A stretch of 64,000 nt of DNA from contig OU342632.1 in assembly GCA_910589415.1 (NCBI GenBank), positions 19,099,507 to 19,163,506 on the forward strand, given 5' to 3'. Position numbers and translations under genes: made by a program. This document shows positions 953 to 56,730 of this stretch, one piece after another. The notes under the pieces are model-generated. The model worked only from the letters and a program-made list of their open reading frames with translations, searched no databases and had not been told where the DNA came from. Within the stretch, counting starts at the first letter, position 1. Every line of letters begins with the position of its first letter. The DNA comes from Malachius bipustulatus. Taxonomy: Eukaryota > Arthropoda > Insecta > Coleoptera > Melyridae.

Positions 953-3900
953 CACGTCCAAGGAAAACTCCGGAGACCGTCGCGACGCCCTCTCCCGAGA
1001 GACTGGGTCGAACCAGGAACCGAACGTCACAGTCACAGCGTAAGTAAACCAAACAATACTCTACAAGTACTGTTATTAACATAACTCGATATTTCCTTTC
1101 AGCGACAAGTAGATCGGGTTCCCCCAGTTCTCGTCTGGCTTACTTGTACAATCGTTCGGACCACGAATCTCCGCGTCCCAGGCGACTGTCATCCGGCATC
1201 CCGCGCTCGACACAAGGCTCCAGAGATACTTCCAGAGAGACGAGCCCCAATCGTAGTCTCCACAAATTTCGCACTCCTCGTACCAACGACAGACCTCCGA
1301 TGAGTCCCGTGGCCAGACCCGTGCTGGCTCAGAAGATCCTGCAGCAGAGTCTAGAGGCTGAAAATGCATTCGCTGATGTGTTTGTGAGTAGTTAGACTTG
1401 TCGGAAGAGTAAGATGATTGGGGTGTTAATTTTTTTTTTTTTTTAGAATGATTCGTCTTCGAGCGATCATTATCGTAATATCCGGAAAGGAATGAGAACG
1501 CTGGACAGCCAGCACTCAGACGAGTCCGAAACGTCCAGTGTATGTTCAGAAAGGTCATTTGACTCTTACAGAAGACCTAGCGATGTAAGTCATTTATTTT
1601 ATAGTAATAGGAATTAAGAGAACTTTTCCATTATTGGTAATTATTGCTTTCGCTAACATAATTTTCTGTTTCAGTCTTATTCATGGAGCGGTTCACAACA
1701 ACGCCTCACTAATAGGGATCTTTGGGAACCCTCTCAAGTAAGTTTTCATTTTATTGTAAATTTAAACTTTCACCTGCATTACAAAATCAAACAAAACGAC
1801 ATTTTTGTTGGGCCCACTTTTTCTAAAATTTTGCTCAAAGAGCACATTGAGCCCCTCCCCTCCTCCTGCAACTTTTTCCTGAACAGACCTTTGCTTCAAA
1901 AGTATTGGGCTGGTCTCATTATAAATCTTGAAGTCACTACTTAAAGCGACTTTAATTTTTTTATGAAAAGGGCTTTAGTTTTTTAGATCAAGTGTTCATT
2001 TCTTTCATTTTCACCACTTTTGAGAGTTATAAAAAACTTTATGGCCTTAATATCACAAATTTTTTGTTCTAAGATTATTATTTTTTTAGGATATTAATGA
2101 AATCATCATGCTATGTGCGAGTACGACTTGGCAAGAAAGAAAGGACGGTCTGCTGTCTCTTCAATATTTCATGAACAACTATAAAGATCAGATGTCCTCA
2201 ACAGAATTGAAGCACCTGACTGAAATTTTCACGAAAATGTTCATGGATTCGCACACGAAAGGTCTGAGTGTCTTTCTCGACACCCTGCACGAGTTTATAA
2301 AAATTTACAGGCAAGATTTGCAATACTGGGTGTACGTTCTCATGCAGAAAGTATTCTTGAAGCTCGGCTGTGAGATATTGAACTCTGTACAAGTCAAATT
2401 GATGAATACCTTAGAGATAATCAAAAATAATTTCCCGCTTCAGCTGTTGTTTAGTAATGTTTATCGGTTTTTCATCGACGCCACACAGACTCCTAATGCG
2501 AAAGTCAAGTGTATCGCTCTGTCGTTCTTGACGTCTCTGTGTCATTTACCAGATTCCGGAGATCATTTATCGGTTAAACCTGCGAAACAAGCTCTTCTTA
2601 AAATCATCACCTTCAGTCAGGTAATTTTTCCAAGATGATAAAATAAACATTTAAATCATTATTTTCATTATATCGTTCTAGGATATGAAGTCTCCAGATA
2701 CTCGTAACGCTGCAAGAATATGTATTGTCGCTATTTTCAACTGTAACACAGCAGAAGCTACTCTAATGTTGGCGGACCTACCGAAAGAATGCCAAGAAAT
2801 CGCTTCGAACATTGTGAACAACCACATGAGAAAAAGCTCGACCAGCAGTGAGCCGGGAAGTCCTGTTGTTACTTCCAGTCCGAAACCTCTATCACCGGGC
2901 ACTCCGACTACTGCCAAAGATGGACTGGATCACGAGGAGATTTATAGGAGTCTCAGAAAAACGACTGCAGAAATACAGAACTATAGTTACGAAGCCTTAG
3001 GTAAATGAATTTCAATCACGCTATAATAAAATTAAGCAGCAGTGTTTCTATAGTATCTCTTTTCTGACTGTATAATTCGATTCTGAAGTGACATAATACA
3101 GTTTGTTTAAATATTGATGATGTTGCTTTGGCAGTTTGAAAAAAGTTTGGGACACCCCATAATATATTATGATTTTTAGGTTCAAAATTGGATAGGGACA
3201 GAGATACGACATCTCAAGATTCGGGTATATCCCAGATGTCTGTTGGTAATGATGTTAAAAATGATATTGCTTCCCTTGAAGATCGAATGGAAGAATTGAA
3301 TATTCGGCCTTCGTACGGACAGAAGTCAGGTCCCAAGTCTTTGCCGTACACTCCTGTAAACGGTGCCTCGGAAAATAATTGCAACGGTTATAGAAGCTTA
3401 GGTGAGTCTGCTGTTTTGAGATATCTGTGGCCATTTTATTGATCTTATTTTAATTCGATAGGTGATTTAAAGGACGCAGATGTGATTAAAAGTGTGTTTG
3501 AAAATTGCGCATTAGACAGCCCCGCTCCGAGAGAGGAAAAACGAAAATTGTTTTCTCTGCTGATCGAAGTAATCAAACAAGGACAAACTACACATTTAAT
3601 TCAACATTTCCGGTATGCAAATTGTTCGTTTTATCCTGTAGACTTTCAACCAAATTCCACTGTTGTCCAATTCAATTTCCTGACCCATTTCATCAAGTAC
3701 TTAACGCCAAATTTTATAAAGCAAGATAACGTGGTGTTAAAGATAACACTCTGATAGTACCACATCACACTGAGGGGTACTGACAGTGTTATCTTGCTAG
3801 AGGTCTTTGTAAACTTAGCTTAAAAAAAGTGTCGATTGCTAAGTAATCTGAACTAATTAAAAAAAAATTCCAGGAAGTTGCTAAGAATTTTGATTGATAA

Positions 3901-7100: not shown

Positions 7101-8331
7101 TTTTGTATGCCAAATAATTATTATTATAATGACTACAAGATGTGCTATAATACATACATACTTTATTAACATGTGGATAAGTTTGTAAATATGGAAGTTA
7201 CATAATTGTAGATCTGTTTTTCAACATTTTAACAGCTTTTACTATTAATCATAATTTTAACAATAATAATTTTTAAGAAATTAAAACTTACAATAAATAA
7301 AGAATAAAAGTCACTGACTGGTCTTTTAAATATTCTAAAACATAGTTTAATTATTGAATGCAAAGTTCCCTAAACTTTCTGAAGTTTCAGAATGTGATGA
7401 TGTTTTGTTAATAAATTGAATAGTACAGAACAGAGTATACTGCGCTCATATTTATTAGGGCCATAAGGAAATGACCTGCAAAATGGAATTTTGGTCATTA
7501 TTTTCCTTAAATGTCGAGAGAAACATTAAATGTGCTATTTTTTAAAATTGATTCTGTTTCTGAGGCTGTAGTTAGTTTTAAGCCTGTTGTTCCGTTTCCC
7601 AGAAAATAAAAAAAAGGTTTCAATATGTGACATCATTTTTATTATTGTCTTGACTTTGACAAATAAAAATGACCACAATGAACTAAATTTTAATTGTTGT
7701 AAGTCGCGGCAATAATGAAAATAACTCACAAATCAAAAACGTTCTTGATTTTCTGGGAAATGGCTTAGGCTTATTATCAATCTTGTCTTATGTTATGTTT
7801 CTCTCTAAAACATTTTGGGGATTCCCCCATTTTGCATGTGATTCCCCTATTATGTATAAAAATCAAATAAACCTGTAGTACAATAGCCTAATTTCAAAAT
7901 TGACTAGTTCCTGGACAATGCCCTTGTTCGACATTTCCTTTTTATCATCAGAGTTGTCGATTTTAATTAGAAATGTGACAGTAAAAATTGCATAAGCCTT
8001 AAGCAAAATGATTTGTCGGAAACATAGTGACTTGCATGGCAAATGCCATCTGATGACTGAAAAGTACAACTTTCAATGTGTCAATCAGAGATTCTCCCAG
8101 AGAAATCTGCAATTTTTCACTACCAACGCTGACAGTTCACTGAAAAACCAATTACCTTGCGAATCTCAGTAAACCAATCAGAGATGGAGCTAGCCACAAA
8201 GCTGTGTTCCTAGAAAGGAAGTAGTTTCTATGAAACAAATTGAATAATAATAAATTATTATATCAATTACAGCAATCCGATTGTTGAAAAACAATAATGC
8301 TTTCTGAACGACACACTTACTCCAACGGTAT

Positions 8332-8394
8332 GGTGAAGACAGAGACATCGATGTTTCAATGGTTATTTCCATCTCATCAGTCTGTCACATCACA
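8332..8394 (-). ncRNA. Type I hammerhead ribozyme, copy A (minus strand, in inverted arm)
   Basis: Read on the minus strand, this copy has the core CTGATGA, a five-pair stem II, GAAA, a short stem III closed by TCGA, and the GTC cleavage triplet. The inner stem I pairs GACAGA with TCTGTC. The outer stem I loses one pair because the inverted arm begins inside it (TGTGA instead of GGTGA). Confidence 0.83.
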
Positions 8395-8481
8395 TTTGCC
8401 ATGCAAGTCACTATGTTTCCGACAAATCATTTTGCTTAAAGCTTTTGATTTTCTTTCTGATCGGCACACTTCTCTAGTGGT

Positions 8482-8544
8482 GGTGATGTGACAGACTGAT
8501 GAGATGGAAATAACCATTGAAACATCGATGTCTCTGTCTTCACC
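8482..8544 (+). ncRNA. Type I hammerhead ribozyme, copy B
   Basis: Every conserved part is visible. Core CTGATGA is at 8496-8502. Stem II pairs 8503-8507 with 8514-8518 (one G-U) around the loop AAATAA. GAAA is at 8519-8522. Stem III pairs 8522-8524 with 8529-8531 around TCGA. Cleavage is predicted after C8532 of GTC. Stem I pairs GACAGA (8490-8495) with TCTGTC (8533-8538), then an asymmetric internal loop (TGT against T), then GGTGA (8482-8486) with TCACC (8540-8544). The very short stem III is typical of metazoan retroelement hammerheads, which often work as dimers. Confidence 0.88.
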
Positions 8545-8919
8545 ATACCGTTGGAGTAAGTGTGTCGTTCAGAAAGCATTATTGTTTTTCAACAATCGGA
8601 TTGCTGTAATTGATATAATAATTTATTATTATTCAATTTGTTTCATAGAAACTACTTCCTTTCTAGGAACACAGCTTTGTGGCTAGCTCCATCTCTGATT
8701 GGTTTACTGAGATTCGCAAGGTAATTGGTTTTTCAGTGAACTGTCAGCGTTGGTAGTGAAAAATTGCAGATTTCTCTGGGAGAATCTCTGATTGACACAT
8801 TGAAAGTTGTACTTTTCAGTCATCAGATGGCATTTGCCATGCAAGTCACTATGTTTCCGACAAATCATTTTGCTTAAAGCTTTTGATTTTCTTTCTGATC
8901 GGCACACTTCTCTAGTGGT

Positions 8920-8982
8920 GGTGATGTGACAGACTGATGAGATGGAAATAACCATTGAAACATCGATGTCTCTGTCTTCACC
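8920..8982 (+). ncRNA. Type I hammerhead ribozyme, copy C
   Basis: This is an exact repeat of the motif at 8482-8544, shifted by 438 bp. With copy B it would release a 438-nt RNA monomer running from 8533 to 8970. Confidence 0.88.
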
Positions 8983-9357
8983 ATACCGTTGGAGTAAGTG
9001 TGTCGTTCAGAAAGCATTATTGTTTTTCAACAATCGGATTGCTGTAATTGATATAATAATTTATTATTATTCAATTTGTTTCATAGAAACTACTTCCTTT
9101 CTAGGAACACAGCTTTGTGGCTAGCTCCATCTCTGATTGGTTTACTGAGATTCGCAAGGTAATTGGTTTTTCAGTGAACTGTCAGCGTTGGTAGTGAAAA
9201 ATTGCAGATTTCTCTGGGAGAATCTCTGATTGACACATTGAAAGTTGTACTTTTCAGTCATCAGATGGCATTTGCCATGCAAGTCACTATGTTTCCGACA
9301 AATCATTTTGCTTAAAGCTTTTGATTTTCTTTCTGATCGGCACACTTCTCTAGTGGT

Positions 9358-9420
9358 GGTGATGTGACAGACTGATGAGATGGAAATAACCATTGAAACA
9401 TCGATGTCTCTGTCTTCACC
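9358..9420 (+). ncRNA. Type I hammerhead ribozyme, copy D
   Basis: This is the third plus-strand repeat of the motif, again 438 bp further on. The unit carrying it stops at about 9460, some 40 bp beyond the ribozyme. Confidence 0.87.
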
Positions 9421-9472
9421 ATACCGTTGGAGTAAGTGTGTCGTTCAGAAAGCATTATTGCATAAGCCTTAA

Positions 9473-9992
9473 AATAGACCCTAATTGTCTATTTTAATTA
9501 TTCTGAATACCTGTGGAAAATATAACTAATTTATTTATTCTGCCCTGATGAAATAAAACAAAAGTGCCGTAATAGTATCAAGATTTTGAGTTATTGCCAA
9601 TTTAGTTTTTTTTTTATTACCATAGCTAAATCTGACATCAGTTGATCAACCTGTGCGAATGAGGAAGCAGTTAACATGGCAGTATTATTGAGAGTAAATA
9701 GTTCCTACGGTTATTACATAATACGACATTTGAGAAACATTCAGACAATGTTTAATTAACCCATGCCAGTATTTTTATGTCACAATTTGACTGCTATGCT
9801 TGTGAAAATTCAAAATAAAGTAAATGGGTTTTTACCCATCGATTATTTTTAGTTTCTGAAGAGATTAATAAAATATGAAAACGGGCTATAAGGAAAACCA
9901 GGTGGTGAGTTTTTCTTCAACAGTCATTACATTGATTTGATTTTTGAAACAAACTTAATTTTAAGTTTAAACGTTATGGCCATAAGTGCCAA
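9473..9992. other. Upstream region of the HCN/CNG-like channel gene
   Basis: AT-rich sequence with no recognisable gene. It should contain the promoter and 5' UTR of the channel gene starting at 9993. An out-of-frame upstream ATG at 9976 opens a short reading frame that overlaps the channel start codon. Confidence 0.4.
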
Positions 9993-12529: not shown

Positions 12530-15500
12530 ATGTATAACAAAATGAGTTTTATGGTGTTGTACCTTTTCTCTGTCTCTGTGTTAGTTTTTGTGTTGTGCCA
12601 GGACTGTTCAGAATTACCAAAAGTGATAACGGACTACAACAAAAAAGATTGTAAAGCAAAAGGACCAGAATATTATTATATCACTAAACAGGGACACTGC
12701 TTTCACACGTGTGAATATTACCCCTTAATAGGTAACATACATTGTTTTTGGGTTTTTTATTTTTATATACAATATTAAACTATTATTGCATTTAAATCTA
12801 CTAAATGAATAATTGTTCCAATCAAAATAAAAAGAAACGATTCCTATGAAGGAAAAGTAGCGTAGAGTTGTATTATTGGTAAAATTAAGTTTTCAAAGCT
12901 TGTGATTGGTTATATCGGGCTGAGATACTAATAGGTATAGCTTTATGAGTGGAGAGAAATGAAAAGTACACTGAACACTGTAAACGCAAAAGAGAAGGCG
13001 ATAGATATCCCAGTTGAATTACTTGCCAGCGATGTTGTCTAACCTGTCAATTTTTAATTAGTTTGTTGTGACACAATATGCAAATTGTTGTCGCTTCACT
13101 AATTTTTGTATCAACATATCCTCCATCCTCTCTTAATGCACATCACCTCTATATAGCTATCTTTTTCTGTGCATTTCTACATAATACCTAGCATCATTCA
13201 GCCAACACATAGGTAGATAGGTACTTTTATCTTTTATTTATAAGTTTCAACAAGAGGAAAGGAAATATTTTATTTTTAAATGCTTTTGGTGGTTGTTTTC
13301 TTGAGATGTTCGTGTTTCATAGAATACATTTTTTTGAAATTCTGTTAAAATGTCATCTCCATGAATAACTAATTTGGCAGAAAATTAAGTTTTAATCACT
13401 TTCAGTTGCCCAATTGTTCTGCCACCGTGATCCTTTTTTTTATTGAAAACAATTTCTTCTACCTTATGATCGAACTCTCATTAATGAGGAGTATTTTCAG
13501 TACCTTCACAAAAAATATTTATTCATCGTGCTCACACATCAAGTAATATTGCACTCAGCTCCAGTAACTATTATGGTTGATCTAATTATTATTTAAAAAC
13601 CTCATATCAAGTCGAGACAGGCATTTTACAAAATTCGTCTGATTTTATCCTTAATTATTCTTCAGGTCGCATGTGGCAATCGAAACATTATTTGATTACA
13701 TAAGTTTGCAATAAATATTTCCATCTATTTGATTATGAGCTATCTTACTAGCAGGAAACAACTGGTTAGGGTCGGCAAGGTTAGAAGTAGCATTGGAGGT
13801 ATTGGTGTTGGTGTCCCTCAGGGTACCATACTTGGTCCTCTGCTTTTTATAACATATATCGATGATGTATTTGAGTCCGCTATTGATTGTTGTTCAATTA
13901 TTGCTTATGCTGACGATACTACAGTTATCTGCAGGGCGGAAACTTGGGATCAGGTTAGAAAAAATCTTGGATTACAATTAGGATTATTGAGTCAGTGGCT
14001 TGTTGAAAATAGTCTATCTCTAAATGTAGATAAGACTGTCTGTATTACTTTTGGTAATTATGCTGATAGCGTACCTAGTACCTTTGAACTGAAAATTGAG
14101 GGAGAAACTATCAATAGAGTGGAGACTACTAAATACTTGGGGGTGGTTTTTGACATGTCCCTAAAGTGGAAGTCACATATAGGGTATATCGTTAGAAGGG
14201 TCAAGTATATTGTGTATGTGTTATCTAAACTGTCGAAAATAATGTCATCTGTAAATTTACTCTCTGTAATGTATGGACTCTATTATAGCATTGCCACCTA
14301 CTGTATTGTGGCATGGGGATCAGCCTGTGATAGTGTTATATATCCCCTTCATAGTGTGCATAGAAGGATTGTTAAAATATTATCTTCTTCAAATGTTGAC
14401 GTTAAGTTACCATTAAATATTGATCAGAAGTATATTCTGGAGTCCATTTCATTTCATTACAAAAAATTGAGTTATGAATTTACTTCAAGTACTTCAAAGA
14501 CTAGATATAAGTCCATCCCACTGCCTTCTTGTTCTAAGGAGGTTGGTAAGAGGAACCATGCTTATACGGCAGTAAAATTTTTCAATAAACTACCGAATGA
14601 ACTTAAAGAAATTGGAACTGCAAAGTATAAGAAAAATATTAAAGAGTTTATCAGAAAAGTTGATAAGATGGAATGAGGACAGGAAACAGTTACATTGTGA
14701 CTCTTGGAATTACAAGTATATGATTTTTTTTTACATTTTGGTGATCTAGTGTATCAGTTGAGTTTTTCTTTTTGTGAATTATTTGATTTATATACATGTG
14801 TTTTTTATTTCGTGGTTAATTAGTGTATTTGATTTTTTATTAGTCATGTATTCTTTTTTTGTTTGTATTTTTCCTTTTTCCGTTATGTTTTAAGTCTGGG
14901 CTGCGTATAGGTTAAATTTGTAACCTCTGCAGATATACAAATATGTCAAAAGATTTTTTTTTTTTTTTGTATGTATTTTTTGTACCTGGAAAGTAATAAA
15001 CTAAAAAAATATCAAATAATATCAAATTGCAAATAAATGAATAATAAAATTTCATAACATATCAGATTATAGTGAAGGGGACATACCTTGTGACACAGAT
15101 GATGACTGCACTCCTGGATATATTTGCTACGCAGATCCTGATGAAAGCACTTGTGGTCAACAACAAAACAGTAAGAAAACTTATACTCATTTTATTTGTT
15201 TAATATAAACATGGTTTTATTTAAGTTTCAATTTGTTTGGATCGGTGGGCGTACACAATTGATAATGAAAACTATTACAGTTACTACTGGAAGGCGGAAT
15301 GCGATGATTATGGTAATTGGAGCCCTGTCCAATGTAAAGGGGATGCATTATCAGGAAGGTAAAATTTAGTGGTCATTAAAAAAATTATGTTCTCAACCCT
15401 AACTTGGTAGAACCTCTGCATACTGATGATAAATAAAGCATTAACGTTTTAAATTTCTACTTTACATTCACGGATCATTAATAAATGTAATACGTGTTTT

Positions 15501-18500
15501 GCTGTTTTCAAAGCAGCATCTTCAGACAAATGCGAATTTATTTATTTACATGATTAATAAAATTAATTTATTTATTTTCATGAATAAATTTACGTTTGTC
15601 TGAAGATGCTGCTTTGAAAGCAGCAAAACACGTGTTACATTACTAACTTGATACAGATACCCAAAATTAAACATCTGAATTATAAAGTCACCAATCTATG
15701 CTGGCTGCTCCCTTTACAACACTCTACCTGCAAATATTAAAAGCTTATGCAGAAATCAATTTAAGAATACTATAAATACTATACTGTCCTCGAATACTTT
15801 CTACACATTATACGAATATCTCGTCTATATCGAAGATGTTCGGTGAATTATCTTGAGCTTTAGCTTACCGATATGAGCGCGGAGCCCTGCGGATGTTTCT
15901 ATGAAAAAAATTTCTGTGATGGTGATGTGACAGACTGATGAGATGGAAATAACCATTGAAATATCGATGTCTCTGTCTTCACCGTACCATTAGGGCGAAT
16001 GTGTCATTCAGAAAGCGTTATTGTTTTCCCTGCGGATGTCATCTACAGCTGCATTATCGCGTACAATATTTAGTGATATTGTTATGTTTTTTTTGTAAAA
16101 GTGTCTGATGTTGTGTGACTTTGTAAGATGGAACTATATAGCTATACATTGCTGGCTAAGCTTACTTATGTAGTGTTAATTTACTATTTTGATTATTGTA
16201 TGTGCTAATTGATGATGAGCCATGTAAATATAGCCCGTCCGAAATGTCATGAGCCAGAATCCTGGAAGTGTGCTACGTCACTATCTCGCAGATACCCACT
16301 TGCTACACGGGCCGGAAAGACAGTAGCGGTGCGTCTTTCAACAGTTCACGTTTATAGCTCTTGCAGTTAATTGGGCAAGTTTTTAAATCAATCGATTGCC
16401 TATGTGCATTAAGCAGTTCCCTCAGCAGTCCGTTCGTAAATTCATCACAATGTTCCACTGAAATCTACCGGGTAGTTTTTTATTTCGGCGCTGGAAACAA
16501 TTTATCTCCAGCAGATCCATCGGTCTTGGAGGTCGATGAATCCGCTGGATTCTGGATGAATATCAGTTATGTTTGGTTACATTTGGAAAATTGTTGACAT
16601 TTCCAGTTTTTTCTAATCACAAGAAATGAAAAATGGAGTATTTATTAGATCAAAAGTTGGTTGGACATAGCTCATCATCCTCTGAAGAGACAGACAGCGA
16701 AGATGACCTATAATTTTTTATAAATATGAACAAATGTAGATATAAACATACCAAAAATACAAATTACCTATACAGGGTGTCCGGTAAGTACCTCCTAATC
16801 TCTCGGGAGCATACAGGGGAGGTCAAAATAAACCTAGTCTGTCATAAAAAAAACATTTCTAAAGTGTCCCTAAACGGAGATACAGAGCCCCAAAATGGTA
16901 CCCTAAGATTTACTTTTTTGGCTCTAACTTTTGAACCGATCTGTATAATTTGATGAAATGTTAATTTTTTATAGAGGCCATAAAGACTCATTAAGGCATA
17001 TCAGAGTGGATGTTTAACGTCCTAAAGGAAGTCAGGAACGGACTTACCACCACAATCATTGTGTCAAAGTTTTGACACGTGTCATTTTACAGAGCTGAAA
17101 ACTTATTTTTTAAATACGCTGGTCATTCATCTTCACAAAAGGTACTCTTAAATTATTTCGATAAAACTAGCGGTTCTCAAGATAAATCGACTTTTATGCG
17201 AACTTTGATCAAGTTCCGTCAATAGCAATCCATTATGTAGGTAGGTTTATCAACAAGAACCTGATTTTTACCTGTTTGTGTTTAGCATTAGTAACTTTTT
17301 AGTGTTTCGCATACCTAAAAACCGATTTATCTCGAAAACCGTCAGTTTTACCGAAATAAATTAAGAGCACCTTTTTTAAAGATGAAGTATTATTAGACTA
17401 TTCAAAAAAAAATAGTTTTTAGCTCTGTAAAATGACACCTGTCAAAATTTTGACTCAACGAGTATGATGGTAAGTCCGTTCCTGACTTCCCTGACGACGT
17501 CAAACATCGACTTTAATATGGCCTGATGGCTCTCTGTGGCCTCTATAAAGTGTTTAAATTCCATCCAATTATACAGGTCGGTTCAAAAGTTAGAGCCAAA
17601 AAAGTAAATTGCGGGGCACCCTTTTAGGGCTCCATATCTCCGTTTGGGGACACTTTAGGATTTTTTTTTTATGACAGACTAGGTTTTTTTTGACCTCCCC
17701 TGTATGCTCCCGAGAGATTAGGAGGCACTTACCGGACACCCTGTATAGTAAAAATCGTTTGCCGCTATTCTCATGGTGATTTCAAGTCACATTTTAGACT
17801 TATGTTTCGTTGTTTATTACAATTATTCGAAAACTTCATCGAACAGTTCATAAATTCATCGAGAATTCGCATTCAATGGAAGCATCGATGACGTCACATG
17901 AAAACATATCGAATAATTTCAGCGATGTTTTTAAGGTTGCATTTAAAAACTTGCCCATTGCCATTTTTTCATACCCTGAATCTACGTTTCAAAATCCGCC
18001 CGCCACTGCTTACAAATATCAAGCCATGGCCTACCCCTACGTCTCTAGGAGAGAACGTTATCGGCTTACTCCTTTCTGAGAATTTTGGTTCATGAAATAC
18101 CATACGGGATTTATATTGTTTATACTTAAAAACAGTGAATAAAAGAATAGAATAGCTGTACTATATCCTGGGTAAAACAGATGAAATTTATTGCATTTAC
18201 TATTATAATTGGACACCTGCCCTTCTATCATAGCTATTGGTCTCATATCCTGAGTTACTTCCATTTAAAAGTAGGGTAAATCTATTCATGTAGTATTTTG
18301 AGTACCATGACAACTCTTTTATTATTTAATATTTCGGTGCCAGAAGGGAATTAAAATTCTATTTTCGTAAAACAGATTCAAAGGATTTTATGTTGTATGA
18401 TCTAGAAGTCTTTAATCAATTCGAAATAATGTTAGATTATTTAGAAAAAAATTACTGACCTTGTTCATTGATAAAGTTAATGTTAATAATGTAATAATAA

Positions 18501-31700: not shown

Positions 31701-34700
31701 ATGAGTATAATATACACTTGCGATATTGGATGGTTTATTTCACATGAAAGCATTATAAATCGGTTTTACCACAATTTTGAAGAATTTCATGTCAATGTGA
31801 AAGCAGATTTATTCAAAATCAATGTGCCCTATAAAAATGGCAATAAGAATAAGAAACTTGGAGGAAAATCTAAAAGCATCAACTCGAATTCTTCACTTAA
31901 TCAACTGCAGGTTCAAATTGGCGAAGAAGTAAGTGAATCTTTAAAAATGAGAGGAGACAAATGGCATCTCGCTATTCTAACATTTTGGTAGGAAAATATC
32001 TCGAAGATACCTTTTCTCTTAGAGAATAGATTAGCCAGTTTTAAGTGTCAAAATATTAGGGATAATTTTGATGTAATGAGTAAAAGGGCAATGATGGCCT
32101 GTAGAAAGTCCCTTGCCAAAACATGGGGCCTTAAACCATGCATGGTGCATTAGCTATACAGCTGTGATAAGACCCATAGTTACATCCCGCTGTTTAGTCT
32201 GGTGGCAGAAAGTTAGCCAGACTTGAGCTACCATTTGATTGTGTTTATAAGAAAACAGAAGCTATGAGCAGCCTTGGAGGCCATACTTGACCTGTTGTGT
32301 CTTCATATTTAAGAGCGAAGCACTAATGTGGGCTTACAGGCTGAACTAAAACAAGAACTGGGGGAAACCCGGACTTGTATGGCACACCAGAATATCATTA
32401 CTGGTCCATAAACATACTGGAACTATGGACCAAGAAATAAAGCATGCCCAGTTAATAGTGAGAGAACCATCTCCAAAACTTGCCTATGAAATACTGCACC
32501 TAAATTGAACACAAATCAGGACATGGTGGGACTTCTGCCCTCTTAGACAACATCTGCATAAGATAGGCATCTACAGAAAAGAACCACCTGTAGAGTTTGC
32601 AATGAGAAAGACGAGACAGCTGCTTTCTATGTATATTTTGAGTGACACTCACCTGAAGGCAGCTATATGCAGTCATGGGCAAACCAGCCCCTGCTGGCAA
32701 GTATATCCCAGGCTAACGTACTGTTAAACCTTGTAAAAGGCACTGAACTGTTCACTAGCCAAAGGCAGGGGCAGGATACAAGATACAATAAGCCTATACG
32801 ACTGTAGCATTAGGGATCACAAAACTGTCTTCCTTATTTAATTATAGGACATTTCAGAAGTATGGGGTACTACAAAATTGAGTAGGTTTCTCAAGTCGAA
32901 AATATATTCAAATATTCTTTTTTATTATTTATTATAATGATTCATGTTTACACCTGTTATTATAATAAAATAAATATAATAATCTATTCTTGAAAAATTA
33001 ATATTTTACAATTTTTAGATATCTTTTGTGAAGACATCTTTCAAAAACTTGAAAGCAAAACTTGAAGAAAACGAATTAGCAATTAAAAATGCGAATGATT
33101 CAGAAGACTCCAACTCAGCAGCGCTACGAATTGCAGAGCTAGTGTACAAAACCACCGAAGAGCACGCTATAAAAAATGCCCACGGAGCAAATATGGGCAA
33201 TCCAATTGTCAAAGAGTTCAAAAATCAGAAGTATTTGTTTCCTCAAAATGCGGTATTTCATTGCGAAAACATTTCGGTGTTACCCGAGCACATCAAGACC
33301 AAGTACGATTTAATAGTCCTGGATCCTCCGTGGTGGAATAAATACATACGTAGAAAACGATCTAAATCCGGATCGGCTTACGACATGATGTATAACACTG
33401 ATCTCGCTAATATTCCGATACAGAATTTGTTAAACGATGACGGGCTTGTTGTCACTTGGTGCACCAATTCTCCACAAAACTATAAAGCGCTCGTTGAAGA
33501 TGTCTTCAAAAAATGGGACATTAAATTCGCGTCTAAATGGTATTGGATTAAAGTCTGTACAAATTTTTTTTAATTAAAATCAAAATTGTATCGTTATTGT
33601 TTTCAGGTTACCAAAAATCTCGATCCTGTTTGTAATTTTTCCGATCCACTCAAGAAGCAACCGTTTGAACAGATTATCTTTGGCTGTAGAAATGTGAGAC
33701 AGTTACCTAACCCACTTGATCAAAAGTTGGTGGTTAGTGTGCCAAGTATCCTGCATTCTCACAAACCTCCACTTATAGGTATGTATTATAGTTTTTATCT
33801 TGCAAGTTATTATATGAGGCATGTCCAGAAAAATAGTAGCGGTCAGTGGTGGTTGGTGGTTCTTGTTGCTGCCTTGAGGAACCCTGAGATTATAGTGATG
33901 TCGCTCAATGTCTCCGTGATTTACCACGAAATTTTATCTTCCAGATAGGATTTTAGCAGCTGGAAGGGACGATAAGCTAGAAGTCTCTTTAGCTCACTTG
34001 TAATGTTTAGTTCAATTATGCCCTGCTAATTACTAAACCCAAAATGACTTGCTGGGATAATTTTCCTTTCTTCTGTTATTATTTTGAGTTTTTTGATGTA
34101 CTTTTTTAAAAACTTTTCAAATCATGGGTCATGGGCTTATTCGAGGGCTTATTATTATAGGTCGACATGAAGAGACATTTTAAGGTTTCTTCCCGGGTTT
34201 GAGAATCATCATCTCAAACTGAGCCATTTCACAAGCGTTGGGGAACAAATTTGCATTATGAATGTTATTGATTGCATGCACTTTTTCTGAGAATTCTTGC
34301 AAGGTTTTACCAGAGATTAGATCAAATTTTCATGGATTGAAGCCATTTGAACTTTTACATTTAGGAAGTTGGTTAGTTTGTTTTCTTGATCTGTGGATAA
34401 CTGCAGAAGGAGAGGGCTTAAATTCGTTTTAGATTGGATTGAAATGATACATTTAGGAAGTCGGTTATTCTGTTTTCTTGATCTGTGGATAACTGCAGAA
34501 GGAGAGGGCTTAAATTCGTTTTAGATTGGATTGAAATGATACATTTAGGAAGTCGGTTATTCTGTTTTCTTGATCTGTGGATAACTGCAGAAGGAAAGGG
34601 CTTAAATACGTTTTAGATTCATTTGAAATGGTATATTTAGGAAGTCTGTTATTCTGTTTTCTTCATCTATGGATAATTGCAGAATTGAAGGGCTTAAATT

Positions 34701-35374
34701 CGTTTTAGGTCCATTTGATTTTTATAAGTAGGAATTTGGTTATCCGGTTTTATCTGAGGATAACTGCTGGAGGTAAGGGCCTAAATACCTATGTGTTTTA
34801 TTATGGGAAAACTTCAGCTTTTCTGGCTGCAGTTGCCAGTTGGAGTAAAACTTTATAAGGAGTCTTGGATTCCTTGATTTTGTTTCTCCTGGATTAGATC
34901 TGCTGTCTCGTTTGTTACTTTGTCAATTTTTTATCAAAGGTGCAGTATCGTCAAGGGTCGCATACCATCCTGAATCTCGTCTTTCTGCTCTTTCTCTGTT
35001 CAGCTCACTTTTAAAAGGCAGATTTATAGAAATAAGGCTATCTAGTTTTTCTCTAAATATTACAGAAAAACGTCTATTGCAAAATGTCAAACACGCGTAA
35101 GGTTACAATAAGTATTGGTTGAATTTAAAGGTTTAGATTGTGGTTGTCTCTTTTTGTAATCTCTTGTTTTTTAAATTTCAACGATCAGCATACTTCCAGC
35201 TTTTATGTAATTTGTACGCTTACAGATCTCTTGGCTCCGTATTTACCTGAGAATCCATCATGTTTGGAGCTTTTCGCGCGTTATCTTGTTCCCGGATGGA
35301 CCAGCTACGGTTTGGAAGTTTTGAAATTCCAACACGAGAGTTTGTATGACATCATTGAAATAAAAAACCAGTAA
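31701..35374 (+). CDS. METTL4: METTL4, MT-A70-family N6-adenine methyltransferase
   Basis: Predicted 360 residues. Exons: 31701-31928, 33019-33552, 33607-33778 and 35226-35374 (stop TAA 35372-35374). The MT-A70 catalytic motif DPPW is present (LIVLDPPWWNKY), followed by the METTL4-type KRSKSGSAYDMM and the VVTWCTNSPQNY strand. The C-terminus CLELFARYLVPGWTSYGLEV closely matches METTL4 of other animals. METTL4 methylates adenine N6; reported substrates include U2 snRNA (m6Am) and, in some studies, DNA. The N-terminal region is shorter than in vertebrates. A minor start ambiguity exists, but ATG 31701 is the first in-frame methionine. Intron 1 holds a dead retrotransposon and intron 3 a 92-bp minisatellite. 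The gene converges on GALE, only 72 bp between stop codons. Confidence 0.9.
32080..32830 (+). pseudogene. Degenerate non-LTR retrotransposon fragment in METTL4 intron 1
   Basis: Broken frames read KTWGLKPCMVH then, after a stop and a frameshift, YTAVIRPIVTSRCLVWW. This is the conserved block just after the reverse transcriptase in jockey/R1/I-type elements. Downstream remnants are too decayed to align by eye. It is clearly inactive. Confidence 0.6.
34357..34790. repeat. 92-bp minisatellite, about 4.7 copies
   Basis: Units begin ACATTTAGGAAGT at 34357, 34449 and 34541 (period 92), then diverged units near 34632 and 34724. The first three are nearly identical, with decay toward the right. They lie in METTL4 intron 3. 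Confidence 0.88.
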
Positions 35375-56604: not shown

Positions 56605-56730
56605 AATTTATATTGTAGATTTGTGTGCAAAATTAATAATGCCTATACAAACACAAGCATCTGAATATTTAAATAATCAAAAATGTATCAAATAGCACAA
56701 CTCTAATAATATAATGTAACACATTATAAA

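Follow-up and report, generated by a model that had tools for sequence, protein, structure and literature searches.

A hammerhead retrozyme of Malachius bipustulatus forms two-armed insertions with a fixed pair of ends, as do two measured insertions of resident Penelope-like elements

The analysed stretch of contig OU342632.1 of Malachius bipustulatus (64 kb, hereafter the window) contains at 7987-9472 a single insertion of 438-bp units, insertion A, which lies within a 16-bp target-site duplication and carries three hammerhead ribozymes on the plus strand and one on the minus strand. The duplication appears as a 16-nt direct repeat, whose left copy (7987-8002) is at most 16 nt long, its last 4 nt matching the element too, and whose right copy occupies 9457-9472. 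When the unit is numbered from the first nucleotide 3' of the hammerhead cut (position 1), the minus arm (7999-8393, 395 nt) reads as unit 389-438 followed by 1-345, with an irregular start near 345, and the plus arm (8393-9460, 1068 nt) reads as unit 299-438, 1-438, 1-438 and 1-52, with a regular short start. Both arms match one cyclic 438-nt unit with 100% identity; of this unit, a complete copy, counted from the nucleotide after the cut, lies on the plus strand at 8533-8970. The coordinates of the insertion, its period and its three plus and one minus hammerheads had been given correctly by an earlier reading of this DNA made from the letters alone (the sequence-only reading). The minus hammerhead belongs to the second arm of a two-armed insertion. 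Within the complete unit, the putative short zone of reverse-transcription starts (unit 47-56), defined from other genomic copies, corresponds to 8579-8588 on the plus strand, and the long zone (unit 104-120), for which a second insertion in the window, insertion B, was used besides other genomic copies, corresponds to 8636-8652 on the same strand.

The type I hammerheads of insertion A are located at 8482-8544, 8920-8982 and 9358-9420 on the plus strand, with the predicted cut after 8532, 8970 and 9408, respectively, and at 8332-8393 on the minus strand, with the predicted cut between 8344 and 8343. They are composed of CTGATGA, a 5-bp stem II that opens with a G-U pair, GAAA, a short stem III capped by a TCGA loop, and GTC, and their stem I has six pairs, a small internal loop and five further pairs. 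The claim of a type I hammerhead in every copy is borne out structurally; in the minus copy, stem I is one base short at its outer end. When both strands of the 64 kb were scanned by structure, five type I hammerheads were found, namely the four in insertion A and a fifth at 15935-15971 in insertion B, which the sequence-only reading had missed, against a background of 2 motifs across 200 replicates of the window generated by a first-order Markov model.

The sequence-only reading had also named a covariance search as a check and the lack of a hit as evidence against itself; formally, this is what was found, as Rfam gave zero matches at gathering scores across the whole window and, at E values up to 5, ten matches in 7900-9600 with no hammerhead among them. 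Eighty-one bases scored 14.3 bits against Hammerhead_3 (cut-off 48.5) and 13.6 bits against the RAGATH-1 hammerhead (cut-off 56.3). ViennaRNA favoured a competing pairing of the core (-18.4 versus -14.3 kcal/mol for the type I drawing); models of this kind are blind to the non-canonical core of hammerheads.

The unit has a GC content of 0.37, and no LTR structure was seen in the insertions examined. The circular unit holds no reverse transcriptase or GIY-YIG frame, its longest ATG frames being of 60 aa on the plus strand and 83 aa on the minus strand, and the 60-aa frame is interrupted by a stop in insertion B. The predicted circular fold of the unit had a z score of -4.1 versus 60 Markov replicates. 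The head-to-head junction of insertion A (8358-8517) gave sub-cut-off matches to microRNA precursor models because of the inverted repeat, and RNA running across this junction is predicted to fold into a long hairpin.

Insertion B is a second, older insertion at 15885-16039, flanked by a 12-bp target-site duplication (15885-15896 and 16028-16039). It comprises an 18-nt inverted arm on the minus strand (15895-15912; unit 120-103, 17/18 identical), which has a long start, and a 112-nt plus arm (15916-16027; unit 383-438 and 1-56, 90% identical), which has a short start and includes a type I hammerhead at 15921-15983 on the plus strand with the predicted cut after 15971. An equally good match to the inverted piece occurred at none of 20654 other sampled window positions, and chance 12-nt direct repeats at both edges arose in 9 of 200000 random draws of place pairs, some draws being skipped. 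Comparison of insertions A and B showed a single difference in the 63-nt ribozyme, a C to T change that retains the pair as U-G, and 10 differences at 49 flanking sites (p=0.001 versus the ribozyme). All 11 differences between the plus arm of insertion B and the unit are transitions, nine of them A/G on the plus strand. RNA editing as the source of the A/G differences was weakened by the finding that sites 18, 21, 23, 25, 28 and 46 are altered in most older copies.

Three other repeats were seen in the window. An imperfect palindrome at 15500-15625, with 58-nt arms that are 83% complementary, precedes insertion B by 260 bp. At about 16772-17744, a stretch of some 970 bp whose inverted ends begin ACAGGGTGTCCGGTAAGT (by eye), resembles a small fold-back or MITE-type DNA transposon, and a tandem array with a period of 92 bp (3.8 copies) is located at 34356-34708.

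A search of the 544-Mb genome with the unit, a comparison that the sequence-only reading had suggested, showed that the element is multicopy (1346 candidates, of which the 40 that were scored gave 204 matches); because the best of more than 1000 were scored, the sample is biased to young copies. We examined 41 insertions, which are A, B and 39 further listed loci, and 35 of them had a readable duplication, with a length of 10-16 bp (median 13); the other six (L013, L032, L041, L048, L051 and L058) were left out. In 31 of the 35, two head-to-head arms were found with one outer end in the long zone and one in the short zone, and none had two equal ends, either both long or both short. The probability of 31 discordant pairs is 5e-10, assuming an independent and even choice by the arms. 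Three insertions had one regular and one irregular end (A, 345/52; L038, 18/115; L050, 122/26) and one, L014, was single-armed; thus 34 of 35 were two-armed overall, and the rule was broken at one end in four, insertion A included.

The short ends lay at unit 47-56 (median 50) and the long ends at 104-117 (median 112, with B at 120), bases shared with the duplication being assigned to the latter, and the outer ends of the two arms were about 60 nt apart in the unit. The long end was on the left in 16 insertions and on the right in 18, two of these being placed by hand. In this tally the ends of insertion B and L047 were set by hand, and ends were located 1-12 nt inside the duplication for L033, L040, L043, L049, L050, L054, L056 and L057. 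Two insertions were interrupted by another insertion (L036 and L049) and one by a deletion (L047). The number of units and the central junction varied between insertions, which were short, flanked by duplications and dispersed on many contigs.

A second genome search, with insertion B as the query, yielded 1168 candidates; the 40 that were scored gave 45 matches, and 20 older loci were retrieved. The duplication was readable in five of these, all of which had one long and one short end (by eye), and the 15 with an unreadable duplication were left out of the end count. No relatives of the unit were found in viral contigs, in prokaryote genome contigs or on plasmids, collections that are not expected to include an animal element. 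Two further arrangements were observed. The same foreign sequence (AGGGAACCTGTATTACCGC...) lies beside retrozyme copies at about 3209-3658 of L049 and at the edges of L081 and L082, and is perhaps another mobile element landing in retrozymes; L037 (about 2228-2268 and 3287-3380) is a young insertion inside an older, diverged hammerhead element.

Substitutions relative to the unit were counted in the 20 older loci and insertion B. They affected 3 of 345 site-copies in the ribozyme core, 39 of 1313 in the rest of the ribozyme and 503 of 4467 outside it, counts that are not independent because the same sites are altered in most copies (nearly all carry changes at five sites of unit 13-56, and 21 of 27 at a sixth). 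No ribozyme site was altered in a majority of older copies, the maximum being 8 of 26. The ribozyme was no better conserved in the youngest copies (11/2520 versus 91/15000 locus-sites, p=0.39), as is expected if the changes arose after insertion. The prediction that catalytic bases are kept genome-wide therefore held for the older copies and failed for the youngest. Because the core is conserved in older genomic copies, we still call the motif a hammerhead, despite the Rfam and folding results, and would predict that it cleaves itself.

The arms start at unit 47-120, proceed to position 1 and then go on to 438. Arms longer than their start cross the cut junction, and cut linear monomers are therefore not the template. 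More than one unit was spanned by 55 of 79 arms, the longest reaching 3816 nt (8.7 units). Inner ends fell near the cut in 3 of 70 cases, where about 2.7 are expected by position and pieces below BLAST detection were missed, and near unit 386-416 in 14 of 70, versus 5 expected, this region having been picked after viewing the data.

Units were alike within insertions, with 171 differences at 56632 compared sites, versus 14167 at 1957503 sites between insertions. Twenty-five variants were present in all covering units of an insertion, and all 21 of those covered in both arms occurred in both. The variants 21G>A, 82T>C, 366A>T and 367T>C were common to several insertions, the others being found in one only. 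A further 67 variants were present in only some units of an insertion, eight of them in two or more units, and part of those outside the eight are edge effects. The minus arm of L017 had two unit types in the order A,B,A,B, which fits two rounds on a dimeric circle, and in the minus arm of L053 one variant was present in 4 of 12 units with strict alternation absent. Copying of a circle would be the best account of the arm lengths together with the likeness of the units.

Penelope-like elements (PLEs) are present in the same genome. A GIY-YIG search gave at least 150 matches above the cut-off (150 scored of 775 candidates), many of them in frames of 823-855 aa arranged either in tandem, with a spacing of about 3.1-3.5 kb, or as pairs placed head to head. 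Contig C11 (84,009 bp), for which 24 GIY-YIG matches are listed at intervals of about 3.33 kb, six on the minus strand and then 18 on the plus strand, is made of PLE copies placed head to head in mid-contig. All seven PLE junction regions inspected, two of which come from one family, had a hammerhead-like core (by eye); the minimal GAAACGTY form was present in five (counted by hand) and a frame starting MGF lay downstream in six (by eye). The unit gave no significant match to these seven regions (best E 0.045 over 17 nt) and zero matches to ten GIY-YIG loci at E values up to 1, in a comparison that covered some of the PLE families of the genome. The proposal of a retrozyme-like element with links to PLEs is upheld for the type I hammerhead, the tandem 438-bp units, the duplications and the PLE-like anatomy, but not for sequence kinship to the resident PLEs. 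A reading of the unit as a PLE pseudo-LTR carrying a frame start (the ATG in stem II) was rejected because of the stop in the 60-aa frame of insertion B and the lack of similarity to the resident PLE regions read, which represent some of the families.

Two PLE pairs, chosen because they are head to head, were measured by BLAST. The ends were at 1174 and 1135 for L076 and at 1111 and 1072 for L073, in both cases 39 nt apart, and lay about 125 and 86 nt, and 129 and 90 nt, respectively, after the motif GAAACGTT; these positions are uncertain by several bases, the targets being AT repeats with unreadable duplications. By comparison, the retrozyme ends lie about 112 and 50 nt 3' of its cut. The retrozyme and both measured PLEs have in common the order ribozyme, short start, tail and long start, with one start of each kind used. 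An inverted arm, a tail on one outer end and a short duplication, the traits of PLE insertions, were found together in the 31 rule-following retrozyme insertions. The two differ in that the measured PLE insertions lie within (AT)n and those of the retrozyme do not. In predicted folds of the start region, tail hairpins are seen for the retrozyme and are less evident for the PLEs.

The element is an animal non-LTR retrozyme, of a known kind, that is young and multicopy here. From these sequence data we infer, with somewhat better than even confidence, that it is moved by the enzyme of a PLE through two-ended priming, probably on a circular RNA. The retrozyme RNA would be captured by the reverse transcriptase/GIY-YIG endonuclease of a PLE, and nicks would be placed in the two target strands at a distance of about 13 nt. 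Of two internal RNA sites, each DNA 3' end would use a different one for priming, and both cDNAs would grow toward the RNA 5' side, crossing the ribozyme junction in its uncut or re-joined form and often circling the unit more than once, after which the two cDNA ends would be joined. The template would most likely be circular RNA of one unit, or sometimes of two, produced by the hammerhead and a ligase. In support of this model, one long and one short end were found in 31 of 35 insertions of the young-biased sample and in 5 of 5 readable older ones, and 2 of 2 measured PLEs were alike. Against it, the unit and the PLEs had no sequence similarity in the regions read; further counterpoints are the lack of a strand difference in start sites for an anole PLE in bulk (PMC11167929), the (AT)n targets of the measured PLEs, the four rule-breakers, the partial variants, L053, and the Rfam and folding results.

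Other origins of the inverted arms were considered. A LINE-type reverse transcriptase acting by twin priming would likewise yield inverted 5' parts; LINE-type frames (RVT_1, class by eye) are present in the window at 13696-14676, and duplications of 10-16 bp would fit. Twin priming is, however, an occasional outcome with one fixed 3' end, usually an A tail, whereas nearly all of the insertions scored here are two-armed and have a fixed pair of internal sites as their outer ends, and we regard this origin as very unlikely. Inverted arms and fixed-size duplications would also be left by a fold-back DNA transposon with inverted ends that moves by cut and paste, but such ends would not differ by about 60 nt, and the variation in unit number and central junction between insertions already contradicts this explanation, to which we give hardly any credence. 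It is also highly improbable that the units are a satellite repeat with a functionless hammerhead-like sequence. Satellite DNA was the form in which hammerhead repeats first became known, cave crickets being one example (PMC2837043), and the lack of Rfam matches at its cut-offs would agree with this, but the copies are dispersed short insertions with duplications, and the ribozyme is their conserved part when they are older.

The same element and PLE machinery could also operate with another template, an uncut, near-clonal linear multimer transcribed from a genomic array, the ribozyme being idle in integration. In vitro, an anole PLE uses mainly uncut RNA as its substrate, and its hammerhead mutants insert normally (PMC11167929); moreover, because units are alike within an insertion, the transcript of that insertion would likewise be close to clonal. 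Arms copied from a linear template could, however, only hold their length or shrink, yet most exceed one unit and one reaches 8.7; in addition, a dimeric circle would account for the A,B,A,B order in L017, and the ribozyme is conserved in older copies. We consider the linear multimer unlikely, though a serious alternative, and favour the circle.

With the PLE-driven, two-ended reaction as the preferred model, the one-long-one-short rule and the two matching PLE insertions turn the guess that a PLE provides the retrozyme enzyme into a testable mechanism. In Adineta vaga, the PLE Pen2a has two direct and one inverted pseudo-LTR and a 9-bp duplication, the PLE tail sits on one inverted repeat, and the discussion of that study ascribes, as a proposal, PLE inverted repeats to self-priming on an antisense template (PMC3846280). 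Two-ended priming would be an alternative explanation for these repeats, and would link the tail, which is optional in PLEs, to a pair of starts. The purified protein of the anole PLE Poseidon_Ac nicks and extends both target strands and initiates at two adjacent internal sites that delimit the tail (PMC11167929); strict pairing of the starts is not demonstrated there, because the start sites are indistinguishable between the strands in bulk. Our judgement is evenly balanced on a broader proposal, that retrozymes and PLEs share one reaction in which both nicked strands would prime on the same RNA, obligatorily at two fixed sites, and the cDNAs would be linked in head-to-head fashion, with no ordinary synthesis of a second strand. 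On this view, the PLE tail would be a footprint left by the paired start and the 438-nt element a minimal natural substrate, the RNA being, for retrozymes, a ribozyme-made circle.

The sequence-only reading had put the array forward as its best candidate for an undescribed system, but the kind of element is already described, and the insertion rule was not visible from the window. Small tandem repeats with type I hammerheads, and their linear and circular RNAs, are reported in corals, mussel and axolotl, with similar repeats in other animals, insects included, and the discussion of that study leaves the mobilising enzyme of animal retrozymes open, calling PLEs "a strong candidate" (PMC7229834). 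The element studied here shares with animal non-LTR retrozymes one type I hammerhead with a short helix III per unit, as judged by structure and with Rfam scores below cut-off, tandem units within about 150-450 bp, of low GC and without LTRs, and target-site duplications exceeding 4 bp (35 of the 41 insertions, with lengths of 10-16 bp). It differs in that the retrozymes of PMC7229834 are described as direct tandem multimers, whereas nearly all insertions here are two-armed and head to head with a fixed end pair; the words "inverted" and "head-to-head" are absent from the accessible text of that article. We did not find a description of two-armed retrozyme insertions in the open-licence literature searched, and the insertion rule and its match with resident PLEs are, within that literature, the new part.

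Comparison with the plant LTR retrozymes (PMC4918200), as described in PMC7229834 and PMC7761336, shows that both are non-coding and bounded by hammerheads, with a proposed circular RNA intermediate, but the plant elements have a type III hammerhead, LTRs, a primer binding site, a polypurine tract and 4-bp duplications, whereas our unit has the type I arrangement and longer duplications. The pDo500 repeat of Dolichopoda cave crickets is likewise an insect hammerhead repeat that cuts multimer transcripts to monomers, but is described as satellite DNA (PMC2837043). Compared with PLEs, the unit is without a reverse transcriptase or endonuclease frame, its hammerhead has a helix III whereas PLE hammerheads are minimal (PMC7761336), and its tail is about 60 nt long instead of the 30-40 bp of PLEs.
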